A stretch of 12,263 nt of DNA from Clostridia bacterium (lineage in GTDB: Bacteria > Bacillota_A > Clostridia > Oscillospirales > Butyricicoccaceae): the NCBI GenBank assembly GCA_017548175.1, contig JAFYMZ010000165.1, positions 1 to 12,263 of the forward strand, written 5' to 3'. The notes under the pieces are model-generated. The model searched no databases and was not told the DNA's origin. It worked only from the letters and a program-made list of their open reading frames with translations. This document shows, one piece after another, positions 5,107 to 11,416 of the stretch (its first letter is position 1; each line of letters begins with the position of its first letter). A program made the position numbers and the translations under genes.

Positions 5107-6723
5107 ATGGAGACCCTGCATTTGAAGGGAAAAAATCCCAAAGATATTGAACTGGCCGGCAAACTGCTGGCCGAAGGTAAATTGGTTGCCATTCCCACCG
5201 AAACGGTGTACGGCCTGGCTGCCAATGCCCTGTCCCCCGATGCCGCCGCGGCCATTTATGCCGCCAAGGGTCGGCCGCAGGACAACCCCCTGATCGTACA
5301 CATTGCCGACCTGCAGCAGATCGGCCCGCTGGCCCGGGAGATCCCCGAGGGCGTGTGGAAGATGGCCGAGGCCTTTTGGCCCGGTCCGCTGACCATGATC
5401 GTCAAAAAGAGTGACATCGTCCCCGACGGTGTCAGCGCAGGCTTGGACACCGTGGGCATCCGGATGCCCAGCCATCCCGTGGCCCGTGCCGTCATCCGTG
5501 CGGCCGGTGTGCCGCTGGCAGCGCCCTCTGCCAATCTGTCGGGCAAGCCTTCGCCCACCACGGCCAAAGATACCGCCCGTGATATGGATGGCCGCATTGC
5601 CGCCATTCTGGACGGCGGCGCCAGCCAGGTGGGCGTGGAATCCACCGTGGTGGATATGACGGGCGACTATCCGCAGGTGCTGCGCCCCGGTGCCGTGACC
5701 GAAGAAATGATCGCCGCCGTAATGGGACAGGCCGCCACCGATGCCGCCGTCACCCGTTCCCTCGGCGCAGGGGAGCAGCCCAAGGCCCCCGGTATGAAAT
5801 ATCGGCATTACGCCCCCAAGGCGCCCATCGTGCTGTTTGAAGGCGCGCCGGAGGACAGTTATGCGGCGCTGGCACAACAGGCCGGTGCAGCATACGACGG
5901 CATTTTGTGCTTTGAAGAATATTATCCCGCCCTGAAAGCCGCCCATACCTGCCGCGTCTACAGTTTGGGCGATAGCTGGGATCACGGCACCCACGCCCGC
6001 AGACTGTTTGCTCTGCTGCGTAAGTTTGACGGCACCCGCGCCAAGCGGATCTTGGCCCAGTGTCCCCGTGCCTACGGCGCCAACGCCGCCACCGTCAACC
6101 GCCTGCGCAAGGCCGCCGGTTTTGCCGCGCAAGCCTGCACCGACAAGACGGTCATCGGCATCACCGGACCCAGCGGCAGCGGAAAGAGCACCTTGTCTGC
6201 GATGCTGCGGGAAACCGGCGCACTGGTACTGGATGCCGATGCCATTTACCACGAACTGACCGCCCAGCCTTGGCTGCAGGAAAAGCTGGAGGCACGCTTC
6301 CCCGGTGTGGTGTCGGGCGGTGTGCTGGACCGGAAAAAACTGGGCCGGATCGTCTTTGCCGACGAACAGGCCAGACAGGACCTGAACACCATCACCCACG
6401 GCGCCGTGCGGGAAGAACTGCAGCGCCGCACCCGGGAGCATTCCGGCAAACTGGTGGTGCTGGACGTGCCGCTGCTGTTTGAAAGCGGCATTGACCGGGA
6501 TTGCACCCTGACCGTGGGCGTCACCGCGCCCCGCGATGTGCGCCTGCAGCGCATCTGCGCCCGGGACGGCATCGATAATGCTTATGCCAAGGCGCGGCTG
6601 GATGCCCAGCCTGCGGATGCCTTCTATGCCGCCCATTGTGACGCGCTGGTGCAAAACAACGGCGCAGAAGCCGACTTCCGTCGGCAACTGGAAAACCTGC
6701 TGGGCCGCTACGGCGTACTGTAA
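5107..6723 (+). CDS. Fusion of threonylcarbamoyl-AMP synthase (Sua5) and dephospho-CoA kinase (CoaE)
   Basis: A 538-aa two-enzyme protein. Residues 1-205 are a TsaC/Sua5 domain, making threonylcarbamoyl-AMP from threonine, bicarbonate and ATP for t6A at position 37 of ANN-decoding tRNAs: IPTETVYGLAANA (29-41), KGRP (54-57), HPVA, and APSANLSG (139-146). Residues about 229-342 are the Sua5 C-terminal domain (linker GMKYRHYAPKAP; closing motif YGANAATVNRLRKAA). Residues about 347-538 are a full CoaE domain, the last step of CoA synthesis: Walker A GPSGSGKST (354-362), LDADAIYHEL (375-384), LDRKKLGRIVFAD (407-419), DVPLLFES (453-460), and NNG near the end. All key motifs are intact and there is no stop, frameshift or internal ribosome binding site at the junction (about residue 345), so the fusion is genuine in this sequence. 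The start ATG is preceded by AGAGAGGG. It is co-transcribed with prfA. Confidence 0.93.
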   Translation: METLHLKGKNPKDIELAGKLLAEGKLVAIPTETVYGLAANALSPDAAAAIYAAKGRPQDNPLIVHIADLQQIGPLAREIPEGVWKMAEAFWPGPLTMIVKKSDIVPDGVSAGLDTVGIRMPSHPVARAVIRAAGVPLAAPSANLSGKPSPTTAKDTARDMDGRIAAILDGGASQVGVESTVVDMTGDYPQVLRPGAVTEEMIAAVMGQAATDAAVTRSLGAGEQPKAPGMKYRHYAPKAPIVLFEGAPEDSYAALAQQAGAAYDGILCFEEYYPALKAAHTCRVYSLGDSWDHGTHARRLFALLRKFDGTRAKRILAQCPRAYGANAATVNRLRKAAGFAAQACTDKTVIGITGPSGSGKSTLSAMLRETGALVLDADAIYHELTAQPWLQEKLEARFPGVVSGGVLDRKKLGRIVFADEQARQDLNTITHGAVREELQRRTREHSGKLVVLDVPLLFESGIDRDCTLTVGVTAPRDVRLQRICARDGIDNAYAKARLDAQPADAFYAAHCDALVQNNGAEADFRRQLENLLGRYGVL

Positions 6724-7797: not shown

Positions 7798-8622
7798 TTA
7801 GGCTTTGGTTGTTTCTCGGCGGTGCAGGCGCAGATAGATCTTTTCCAGCAGGTGGAAGAGAAACAGCACGATGCCGGCCGCTGCGGTAAAGCCCAGCATA
7901 TACACGGCCAGACTGAGGCCAAAGGGCAGCACGTCATGCAGGTCGGTATACAGCGGCAGCAGGGAATCGTAATGGGGGCTGAAATAGAACATATTGAACA
8001 GGTCGCCGTCAGCCAGATCAAAGTGATAGACCACTTCGTTCAGCACACAGGCGATGCCGGCGGCTGCGGCAAAGACGGGAAATGCACGGCGCAGCGTTCC
8101 GGGTGCGGAGGGAACATAGCCGCTGTGCAGCAGATAAATGCCGATGGTGACCATACTGCCGTGCCAGAACATCGTCTGCAGGTTGACACCGATGGTTTCG
8201 GTAAAGACGGTGGCGGGGTAGGCCATCACTGCCACGCCGGCGAAGAGGGCGAAACTGCCCAGATAGGCGCACAGGATATGGTGCAGTCTGCGGTTTTTGA
8301 CCAGTGCTGCCAGCAGTCCCACATACATCGGGGTAGAGCAGAACTGCCACGGGAAGGCGTGCCAGATGTATTCGGCCACGATTTTGCCGTCCTCAACGGT
8401 AAAGGTAAAGACGATCTGCTTATAGACTTCCAGCAGCAGACAAGCCACCGAAGTGATCAGCAGCAGGCGGCGGACGTTGCGCTCGGTGGGGGAGAGTTTG
8501 CGGCACAGGATCACGCCGCATACCACGGCCAGCAAGCAAAAGAAGATATGAAACGGACCGTACGGCACGGGCGACTCCATTTCGGTGCCCAATATGGTCA
8601 ATATTTTAGCAAGAACAGACAT
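7798..8622 (-). CDS. TP0381/YwaF-family integral membrane protein
   Basis: A 274-aa membrane protein with about seven hydrophobic segments and a Lys/Arg-rich C-terminus (LRLHRRETTK). The centre carries WHAFPWQFCSTPMYVGLLAALV (87-108), matching the conserved pattern of the TP0381/YwaF family (small-residue helix with a conserved His/Pro and a CS pair), and a second conserved-looking histidine in MFWHGSMVTIGIYLL. No enzymatic or transport activity is established for bacterial members that I know of, so I assign family only. The start is the ATG at 8620-8622 with GAGGAG seven bases upstream; the 30 extra residues of the longer frame run over the promoter and lack a binding site. The gene is a single unit with its own extended -10 promoter and terminator. 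Confidence 0.8.
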   Translation of the reverse strand: MSVLAKILTILGTEMESPVPYGPFHIFFCLLAVVCGVILCRKLSPTERNVRRLLLITSVACLLLEVYKQIVFTFTVEDGKIVAEYIWHAFPWQFCSTPMYVGLLAALVKNRRLHHILCAYLGSFALFAGVAVMAYPATVFTETIGVNLQTMFWHGSMVTIGIYLLHSGYVPSAPGTLRRAFPVFAAAAGIACVLNEVVYHFDLADGDLFNMFYFSPHYDSLLPLYTDLHDVLPFGLSLAVYMLGFTAAAGIVLFLFHLLEKIYLRLHRRETTKA

Positions 8623-8662
8623 AAACAAGCTCCTCGCGAATAAATCAATAAAAAGCGGGCTT

Positions 8663-8668
8663 ATCATA
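8663..8668 (-). promoter_or_regulatory. Extended -10 element of the YwaF-family gene
   Basis: On the minus strand TGCTATGAT forms an extended -10 (TGn-TATGAT, complement of 8663-8668) about 40 bases before the start codon. No good -35 is seen, as is common for extended -10 promoters. Confidence 0.55.
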
Positions 8669-8716
8669 GCACATTTTTTCTGCGAAGAAAAGGCTTTTAA
8701 CAGAAATTTCATAAAG

Positions 8717-10376: not shown

Positions 10377-10461
10377 GGGAGTGTTCCCGAGTGGCCAAAG
10401 GGGGCAGACTGTAAATCTGTTGACAATGTCTACGGTGGTTCGAATCCACCCGCTCCCACCA
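10377..10461 (+). tRNA. tRNA-Tyr (anticodon GTA)
   Basis: An 85-base class II tRNA with a long variable arm. Acceptor GGGAGTG pairs with CGCTCCC (one G-T pair), anticodon stem GCAGA/TCTGT holds the loop CTGTAAA with GTA at 10411-10413, the T arm is GTGGTTCGAATCCAC, discriminator is A and CCA is encoded. G34 makes it one of the four tRNAs that receive queuosine, which is relevant to the transporter gene that follows. Confidence 0.97.
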
Positions 10462-10493
10462 AAAACCCGAAGGTGAAAACCTTCGGGTTTTTA
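10461..10493 (+). terminator. Terminator of the tRNA unit
   Basis: A GC-rich stem (AAACCCGAAGGT with ACCTTCGGGTTT) closed by a GAAA tetraloop runs straight from the CCA end of tRNA-Tyr and ends in T5. Confidence 0.93.
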
Positions 10494-10507: not shown

Positions 10508-10536
10508 TTGCATTTCCGTTTGCGGTGCGATATAAT
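10508..10536 (+). promoter_or_regulatory. Promoter of the queuosine-precursor transporter operon
   Basis: TTGCAT (10508-10513), a 17-base spacer and perfect TATAAT (10531-10536). The expected transcription start (about 10543) falls directly at the first helix of the riboswitch candidate, a typical arrangement for the compact preQ1-I class. Confidence 0.75.
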
Positions 10537-10543
10537 AACAATA

Positions 10544-10589
10544 CCGACAGTTCGTTTGCACCATCCTGTCGTTAAACAAAACCAGGGCT
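10544..10589 (+). ncRNA. Candidate preQ1-I riboswitch aptamer
   Basis: Helix P1 pairs CGACAG (10545-10550) with CTGTCG (10566-10571) around a 15-base loop that begins TTC and ends in C directly before the 3' strand, as in known preQ1-I aptamers. It is followed by the A-rich tail TTAAACAAAACCAGGG (10572-10587), which from memory closely resembles the tail of the Thermoanaerobacter tengcongensis preQ1 aptamer (UUAACAAAACAAGGG). The pseudoknot partner is less certain: loop TTTG (10555-10558) with CAGG (10583-10586) needs two G-U pairs. The tail overlaps the 5' strand of an antiterminator (10576-10584), so ligand binding should favour the terminator and switch the operon off. The downstream gene belongs to a queuosine-precursor transporter family, which independently supports the call. 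Confidence 0.75.
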
Positions 10590-10647
10590 ACGATGTTACA
10601 TAATTGTGAAAGTATCGTGGTTTTGTGTTGTGCAAAACCATTTTTTT
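10576..10647 (+). terminator. Switchable terminator/antiterminator of the riboswitch
   Basis: Terminator: TGGTTTTG (10618-10625) pairs with CAAAACCA (10633-10640) around a 7-base loop and is followed by T7 (10641-10647). Antiterminator: ACAAAACC (10576-10583) pairs with GGTTTTGT (10619-10626), stacked on CGAT/ATCG (10591-10594 with 10614-10617). The two helices share the middle strand and exclude each other, while the first strand is also the aptamer tail. Three copies of the same sequence or its complement at these spacings are hard to explain otherwise. Confidence 0.85.
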
Positions 10648-10666
10648 ATTATCCGGGAGTTTTTTA

Positions 10667-11416
10667 ATGATGCGTAAGATCAAAACTTGGCTGAAAGCGG
10701 AATATGAAGAAACCCGCGTGCTCTTCCGCTGCATTCCGGCAACGGCGGTGTCGCTGTTTGTGGTCAGTGTGGTCTGTATGAACCTGCTGGCCAATAAGAC
10801 GCTGGTGCAGACCCATTGGATCGCGCTGGACGGCGGTGTGCTGATTTCCTGGCTGTCCTTTATGTGCATGGACATCATCACCAAATATTTCGGCCCCAAG
10901 GCATCCAATAAAGTGGCGGTGCTGGCTTCGGCCATCAATGTGCTGACCTGCACGGTGTTTTATATCGCCAGCATCATTCCCTCGCAGGCCAACGATTATA
11001 CCGCGCTGAATGAAATGCTGGGCGGCACGTGGTTTATCCTGCTGGGCAGTACCGTGGCCTTTTTGATCTCTGCCGGCATCAACAATTTCCTCAACTGGAG
11101 CATTGGCAAGGCGTTCTTTAATAATCCCGATGGGAAACTGGCTTATGCTGCCAGCACCTATCTGTCCACCTTTGTGGGACAGTTTATGGACAACCTGATT
11201 TTTTCCGTCATCGTATTCGTCTTTTTTGCGCCCATCTATTGGAACGGCTTCCATTGGACGCTGCTGCAGTGTGTGATGTGCGCCCTGACCGGCGCCGTGG
11301 CAGAACTGGTGATGGAAGTGCTGTTCTCGCCCTTGGGCTATCGCATTGTAGCAAGTTGGCGCAAGCATCAGGTGGGACAGGAGTATCTGACATATATGCA
11401 GGAGGGCAGACAATGA
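10667..11416 (+). CDS. VUT-family (YhhQ/DUF165-like) queuosine-precursor transporter
   Basis: A 249-aa membrane protein with about six hydrophobic segments (roughly 23-42, 54-72, 84-104, 121-145, 165-190, 199-222). Family-like positions are the acidic residue and YFGPKAS after the second helix (D69, 74-80; compare the D...YG+K pattern of YhhQ) and STYLSTFVGQFMDNLIF (163-179) with Gln172 and Asp175. YhhQ-type proteins import preQ0/preQ1 or related precursors used to place queuosine in tRNAs with GUN anticodons. Start: ATG at 10667, with GGGAG seven bases upstream, just after the switchable terminator; a longer frame would read through that terminator. The gene ends in ATGA overlapping the dehydrogenase start. 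The riboswitch in front predicts repression when preQ1 is plentiful. The exact substrate (preQ1, queuine or another) cannot be read from sequence. Confidence 0.85.
   Translation: MMRKIKTWLKAEYEETRVLFRCIPATAVSLFVVSVVCMNLLANKTLVQTHWIALDGGVLISWLSFMCMDIITKYFGPKASNKVAVLASAINVLTCTVFYIASIIPSQANDYTALNEMLGGTWFILLGSTVAFLISAGINNFLNWSIGKAFFNNPDGKLAYAASTYLSTFVGQFMDNLIFSVIVFVFFAPIYWNGFHWTLLQCVMCALTGAVAELVMEVLFSPLGYRIVASWRKHQVGQEYLTYMQEGRQ

Follow-up and report, generated by a model that had tools for sequence, protein, structure and literature searches.

Overall, the leader of a transporter gene in the window (the whole stretch of DNA that was analysed, 12,263 nucleotides long) is very probably a preQ1 riboswitch that turns an importer off at the level of transcription, belonging to class I, resembling type I and carrying a 15-nt loop. 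That preQ1 is the ligand, that it binds and that binding leads to termination are points that we infer. Specifically, transcription would start at P1, and plentiful preQ1 would bind between P1 and the P2 pseudoknot, locking the tail (10572–10588) into the pseudoknot. With the tail locked, the antiterminator (10577–10632) would be blocked, the terminator (10617–10647) would fold and the transporter would not be made. At low preQ1, pairing of the tail with the terminator 5′ arm would let RNA polymerase read through, and the importer would be made.

As read from the sequence, a leader of ~120 nt precedes the Vut_1 transporter gene at 10667–11416. The features are:

10531..10536, + strand: −10 box TATAAT, read from the sequence
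10545..10550, + strand: 5′ strand of P1, CGACAG (P1 is paired in 99.7% of cells over 104 sequences)
10551..10565, + strand: 15-nt loop TTCGTTTGCACCATC, which starts TTC (type I ligand-contact columns invariant in 104/104)
Within the loop, + strand: type I contact positions UU (10551–10552) and UC (10564–10565), columns 8, 9, 21 and 22
10558..10562, + strand: 5′ strand of the P2 pseudoknot, GC(A)CC, with 10560 bulged, from covariation
10566..10571, + strand: 3′ strand of P1, CTGTCG, from covariation
10572..10584, + strand: A-rich tail (L3) TTAAACAAAACCA (columns 38 and 39 invariant in 104/104)
10585..10588, + strand: 3′ strand of the P2 pseudoknot, GGGC, from covariation
10577..10632, + strand: predicted antiterminator hairpin, which uses the tail and excludes P2 and the terminator (minimum-free-energy structure)
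10617..10647, + strand: predicted intrinsic terminator, an 11-pair stem followed by the T run 10641–10647 (hairpin −10.5 kcal/mol)
10655..10659, + strand: ribosome-binding site GGGAG, read from the sequence
10667..11416, + strand: putative regulated gene, a Vut_1/QPTR-type transporter of 249 aa (Pfam PF02592, E 1.1e-24)

The position of the TATAAT box puts the predicted transcription start at ~10543–10545, in agreement with the preliminary description, which had the element begin there. Among relatives, a match of at least 5/6 to TATAAT lies within 25 nt 5′ of P1 in 68/118 leaders, compared with 33/118 base-shuffled leaders, an enrichment that by itself lends weak support to a promoter. The other elements of the earlier account are also present in the sequence: the 6-bp hairpin CGACAG/CTGTCG (10545–10550 and 10566–10571) with its loop starting TTC at 10551, the tail ACAAAACCA, whose last base is 10584, the complement of that tail, TGGTTTTGT, starting at 10618, and the second copy CAAAACCA ending at 10640 and followed by seven T at 10641–10647. 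The tail carries the two conserved type I bases A10581 and C10582, and C10583 may pair with G10554 of the loop. With respect to the pseudoknot, which had been described as weak with two G–U pairs, the window can form four pairs (10562–10585, 10561–10586, 10559–10587 and 10558–10588), all of them G–C, with one bulged A. The G–U register was dropped, as it is the register with four G–C pairs that covaries.

The gene for tRNA-Tyr(GTA), a queuosine target, lies just 5′ of the leader at 10377–10461, and a hairpin at ~10461–10492 was read by eye 3′ of it. Among the 44 element-bearing loci of the transporter search described below, the fetched stretch contains tRNA-Tyr only in L008. In L002, a tRNA-Leu ends 4 nt before P1.

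By folding energy, the 107-nt leader is mildly unusual (z = −2.24, with 4/200 shuffles as good) and the aptamer part alone is unremarkable (z = −0.01). The decisive evidence that the predicted element is more than chance is comparative, and comes from several collections of related sequences. A search for the transporter in bacterial genomes gave 184 loci, of which the best 80 were taken, and 44 of those 80 carry the element 5′ of this transporter; L018, which has a tail-like remnant, is excluded from the 44, and L061 and L065 have nearly no upstream sequence. A covariance model built from 26 sequences, which included P1 and lacked P2, was run on three partly overlapping samples of 391, 394 and 392 genomes. 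Among the 391 genomes sampled by class, 17 matches scored 58 bits or more, each with a length of 47 nt, and 47-nt matches at E≤1e-7 were obtained in 26 of the 394 genomes (order of G007) and in 63 of the 392 (order of G008). A loop and tail pattern that left P1 free hit once each in 63/392 genomes, and a reversed control pattern gave no hits among the matches listed for that 392-genome search. The P1 3′ strand in these P1-free hits is CTGTC in 62/63 and CAGTC in one (L116, with a matching GACTG). The P1 sequence GACAG/CTGTC is thus almost invariant even when the search leaves it free, which is unusual for a helix.

Two sets of relatives were drawn up. The first was collected by a regular expression that demanded a TT loop start, a C..TC loop end and an AC[CT]A tail, and held 83 distinct rows. 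Because the expression itself required those bases, invariance in this set is possibly a selection effect, and real members were dropped. The second set was therefore chosen on overall similarity, without requiring any position, and of its 117 distinct rows the 104 that matched at least 33 of 44 positions were kept; the 13 dropped rows are 12 shorter-loop elements out of register and one chance match. The leader and gene censuses below (118 and 110 leaders; 76 and 55 gene counts) rest on the first set. A regular-expression tally of loop lengths, in which some genomes are counted twice and divergent members are missed, gave 126 hits with 15 nt, 57 with 12, 3 with 14, 2 with 13 and a single chance-looking hit with 16.

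Pairing was counted over the 104 distinct sequences for a structure of 11 pairs in total, comprising the 6 pairs of P1, the P2 pairs of loop positions 8, 9, 11 and 12 with tail positions 37, 36, 35 and 34, and one extra pair of loop 4 with tail 32 (column 11–40). In this structure 98.0% of 1144 cells are paired and 7 pairs show changes on both sides, compared with at most 43.2% of cells and at most 4 pairs with double changes in slid control structures. The outer pair of P1 occurs as CG, AU, UA, GC and UG, and two inner pairs are compensated once each. P2, with the consensus loop GY(A)CC and tail GGRC, is paired in 99.8% of 416 cells; three of its four pairs show double changes, and the loop 9/tail 36 pair holds with no exception (UA 52, UG 27, CG 22, GC 3). 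This pairing is free of selection, since the model that found the rows did not contain P2. Covariation in relatives, a check named in the preliminary description, is accordingly strong for both P1 and P2. The solved type I pairing register was tried as a candidate on the same sequences and rejected, with 36.2% of cells paired versus 99.8% for the proposed P2. The sequences are related to one another. Mapped onto trees of the proteins encoded downstream, the loop 9/tail 36 pair shows at least 5 changes across 50 transporter leaders and 11 across 43 QueD leaders, but the number of supported independent pairs on these gene trees is insufficient for a sign test.

The extra pair between loop 4 and tail 32 is more variable (GC 58, AU 19, GU 7, unpaired 20; 80.8% paired), and it would occupy the place of the type I C8–A12–U32 triple. 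An earlier count on the 83 rows had given 99.0% for all pairs, 99.7% for P2, 92.8% for the extra pair and 37.3% for the type I register. When the rows were re-picked, the contact bases and P2 held and the extra pair fell from 92.8% to 80.8%. Its failures fall chiefly in a subgroup with the loop end CCTTC or CCCTC and the tail CCGGG, which may have an alternative pocket lid. The loop of this subgroup (L186, L187, L193, L194, L230, L239, L241, L245–L248 and L136) starts TTCATT, and loop 4, loop 13 and tail 33 change together in it, with loss of the extra pair.

In terms of the ligand pocket, type I riboswitches contact two stacked preQ1 molecules through U6, U7, U16, C17, A30 and C31, according to the consulted portion of PMC8752633, and the type is marked by UU, UC and a tail C in the corresponding portion of PMC11625349. 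The matching columns 8, 9, 21, 22, 38 and 39 are invariant in all 104 distinct 15-nt sequences, the window included. Thus UU directly 3′ of the P1 5′ strand, UC (with the specificity base) directly 5′ of the P1 3′ strand, and the A–C of the 3′ tail (A30, C31) are each found in 104/104. Two features of class I as a whole are likewise present, namely the H-type pseudoknot (P1, A-rich L3 and a loop–tail P2), as judged by covariation, and the link to queuosine genes, which holds for 72/76 leaders found without regard to the gene. Departures from strict type I are also clear. The tail preference given as CUA in the available text of PMC8752633 is CCA in the window, with the middle base C in 78/104 and U in 26/104; the loop is 15 nt rather than 12; and the P2 register of the Can structure pairs in 36.2% of cells. 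The window also falls below the RF00522 gathering score of 39 bits. Given the class I features found, and the absence of the 12-nt loop, the P2 register, CUA and the RF00522 score, we regard the element as a variant rather than a strict type I member. Taken together, the covariation, the invariant contact bases and the gene context support the earlier proposal of a divergent preQ1-I-type aptamer with a longer loop.

The window transporter scores 43.2 bits against TIGR00697 (queuosine precursor transporter), below the cut-off of 50.95, and a search by sequence found no solved structure for it. The earlier placement of the element 5′ of a queuosine-precursor-type transporter gene is supported. 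To name the genes of the relatives, the first open reading frames after the element were clustered by similarity, and each cluster took its name from a single representative. The 72 gene-blind 15-nt leaders linked to queuosine precede QueD, QueE, QueC, QueF, Vut_1 or nucleoside-hydrolase genes, and the full set of 76 comprises QueD (43), Vut_1 (17), IU nucleoside hydrolase (7), HGD-D (3), QueF (2), QueE (2), QueC (1) and one other. A further 43 leaders, from the window and the transporter-search loci, precede Vut_1 by construction, and L170 and L254 have no open reading frame in range. The 21 rows added later comprise Vut_1 (5), QueD (5), QueE (3), QueC (3), QueF (1), QueT (1), HGD-D (1) and none (2), where the QueC calls have 31–33% identity to the QueC representative and L031 comes from the transporter search. 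The 55 leaders with a 12-nt loop precede QueT (28), radical SAM (11), HGD-D (8), Vut_1 (3) and other genes (5).

In individual genomes, the 15-nt form precedes queD-queE-folE-queC-queF on a 627-kb replicon of Lachnospira eligens ATCC 27750, and the genes for a 2-hydroxyacyl-CoA dehydratase, its activase, queD, queE and folE in Ilyobacter polytropus (Fusobacteriota). Among 27 genomes with both the element and the transporter, tgt is present in 27/27 and queA in 26/27 (a fragment in the other). None of the 27, which are mostly metagenome assemblies, has a queC match above the family cut-off, and weak queC-like matches below it occur in 22/27. With tgt and queA present and queC lacking an above-cut-off match, these genomes appear to need an imported precursor.

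These gene contexts and contact bases bear directly on whether the ligand has changed, such that the enlarged loop and re-registered P2 would form a pocket for preQ0 or queuine rather than preQ1. The departure of P2 from the published type I register and the predominance of C at tail position 32 would fit such a change, as would the nucleoside-hydrolase genes behind the form (7/76), which could belong to queuosine salvage, and the differing substrates of QPTR transporters, preQ0/preQ1 or queuine, given in the consulted portion of PMC11130926. We nevertheless consider a changed ligand unlikely, as every type I preQ1-contact base is invariant, the form is also found 5′ of queD-queE-folE-queC-queF, which yields preQ1, and the presence of tgt and queA without queC in the transporter genomes fits the use of preQ1.

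Several of the downstream genes merit separate mention. In the portion of PMC3766115 available to us, iunH (nucleoside hydrolase) and folE already appear in a regulon survey among the genes placed under preQ1 riboswitches. The IU_nuc_hydro genes under the 15-nt element (L111, L112, L220, L223, L226, L231 and L232), where the loop ends ACCTTC, are candidate queuosine hydrolases. Genes for the 2-hydroxyglutaryl-CoA dehydratase D-component (HGD-D) lie directly behind preQ1-type elements at L266:3633–5402 and in L118, L120, L124, L126, L127, L128, L132, L138, L146, L160 and L249; in Ilyobacter, such a gene is accompanied by one for an activase, ahead of queD-queE-folE. HGD-D was considered as a general replacement for epoxyqueuosine reductase and rejected, with QueG or QueH above cut-off in 10/11 such genomes. 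As for phages, the exact pattern had no hits in IMG/VR, and the sole hit in a phage collection, a contig with a bacterial-looking queD-queE-folE-queC operon, was rejected as a phage link. L264 (MT839497.1), labelled 'Bacteriophage sp.', carries the 15-nt element and queD-, queE-, folE- and queC-like frames, named by reading frames and, for queE, also by similarity; it is probably bacterial and mislabelled. Elsewhere in the window, the protein encoded at 7798–8712 on the − strand matches Pfam PF14808 (TMEM164, E 1.9e-13), and a single open reading frame at 5107–6723 on the + strand joins L-threonylcarbamoyladenylate synthase and dephospho-CoA kinase domains.

With respect to the switch itself, the free leader of the window is predicted to fold into P1 and the antiterminator (−26.6 kcal/mol). 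With P1 fixed and both loop and tail kept from pairing, to mimic bound ligand, the prediction changes to the terminator (−22.6 kcal/mol). Both alternatives of the antiterminator/terminator switch outlined in the preliminary description are thus recovered by folding of the window. A hairpin of −8 kcal/mol or lower followed by T within ~100 nt occurs in 110/118 distinct 15-nt leaders versus 22/118 shuffled ones. At full length, the minimum-energy structure contains the antiterminator in 13/110 leaders, and both states are obtained in 11, the window among them, which disfavours a plain equilibrium switch; since the antiterminator prevails in so few, switching in most relatives would have to be kinetic. 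For transcripts truncated ahead of the terminator 3′ arm, predicted folds join the tail to the 5′ arm in 95/110 leaders versus 289/1100 shuffled, which is consistent with a kinetic switch. Two successive terminator-like hairpins follow one aptamer in 31/118 leaders (L002, L005, L007, L009, L013, L040 and others), and several of these have a second 5′ arm like GTAGTTTTG, a two-block complement of the tail CAAAAC...CTAC.

Control of translation, in which the tail or a terminator arm would hide the ribosome-binding site in place of termination, is suggested by two 15-nt-loop leaders, L020 and L024, which lack a terminator-like hairpin within the scan; in L020 the ribosome-binding site also follows the tail closely. 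With a terminator in 110/118 leaders, and with the window ribosome-binding site (10655–10659) located 3′ of the T run, where neither structure covers it, we judge this mode very improbable. Least probable of all is a protein-binding or DNA operator formed by GACAG-N15-CTGTC, an inverted repeat located at the transcription start and read by a regulator, an explanation that would account for the near-invariant P1 sequence (CTGTC in 62/63 of the P1-free pattern hits) but that is at odds with the compensation of the three inner P1 changes seen (GACTG/CAGTC in L116; GGCAG/CTGCC in L136), with the conservation of loop and tail beyond the repeat, with the covariation of P2 as RNA, with the terminator and antiterminator that follow in most leaders, and with a known riboswitch model being the best match of a 12-nt relative.

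The Rfam preQ1 models, to which the preliminary description had looked for a match, left the window unmatched both at gathering and at E≤10. RF00522 (PreQ1) misses the 15-nt form even at E≤10 in the window and in L053, and its 39-bit cut-off is reached by 0/20 loci, shorter-loop members included, by none of 30 genomes, and by 0/17 element-bearing loci of another scan. A scan of all 4227 Rfam families matched neither preQ1-II (RF01054) nor preQ1-III (RF02680) to the window or the other loci scanned. Shorter elements are also picked up by the covariance model; their loop is TTCGTAACCATC and their tail AAACAAAACTA. For one of them, L120 with a 12-nt loop, RF00522 is the best Rfam match and falls in the right place, at 25.0 bits (E 0.0025; cut-off 39). 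As this relative also scores below the cut-off, we do not count the miss of the window against preQ1. Since the gathering score finds none in the loci scanned, the annotation of queuosine regulons may be incomplete in these bacteria.

We lean, cautiously, towards reading the 15-nt form as a fourth preQ1-I subtype, in which the three extra loop bases shift P2 (four pairs with a bulged A) and the pocket ceiling is rebuilt, both stacked-ligand sites being kept. In the rebuilt ceiling, a loop–tail pair would replace the type I triple in most members. If true, the form would bind two preQ1 molecules beneath a different lid and serve both synthesis and import in many Lachnospirales and Oscillospirales as well as in the fusobacterium Ilyobacter, going uncounted wherever the Rfam model is used. 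To the best-studied class of small riboswitches, the 15-nt form adds a variant whose loop is expanded and whose pairing is defined by covariation, and it offers a direct structural test of whether two-ligand stacking persists under a rebuilt pocket ceiling. For the window, the element ties a transporter that falls below the NCBIfam cut-off to queuosine-precursor import. Among the titles and opening lines of abstracts found by a literature search, none names a loop-expanded type I form, which we do not take as absence from print.

Compared with known systems, the window form is close to preQ1-I type I (Can, Hin and Ngo), with which it shares the counterparts of U6, U7, U16, C17, A30 and C31, the H-type pseudoknot, the A-rich L3 and queuosine genes downstream, as described in the consulted portions of PMC8752633 and PMC11625349. 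It differs in that the Can loop has 12 nt (positions 6–17; PMC8752633, same portion) and pairs in the register A12–U32 plus C10–G34, whereas the window form has 15 nt and pairs GY(A)CC with GGRC. The E. coli yhhQ element, preQ1-I type III, likewise controls a COG1738/QPTR-family transporter and has UU at P1, but the available text of PMC10622847 gives it AC before the P1 3′ strand, a short pyrimidine-rich loop and a translational mode, where the window form has UC, a 15-nt loop and a terminator. The preQ1-I element of Clostridioides difficile queK-qrtT-queL similarly controls precursor salvage and transport in Clostridia, although QrtT is ECF-type and of another transporter family, and this element is likened by its description in the consulted part of PMC11477304. 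The architecture of RF00522 PreQ1 is shared, as judged from its consensus aligned to L120. Also close are the 12-nt clostridial elements (L119, L120 and others), which are found by the same model and have a near-identical P1, UUC, ACCAUC and AAACAAAACUA; their loop is 3 nt shorter, tail position 32 is U in 49/49, and they mostly precede QueT, radical-SAM and HGD-D genes, whereas the 15-nt form precedes QueD and Vut_1.
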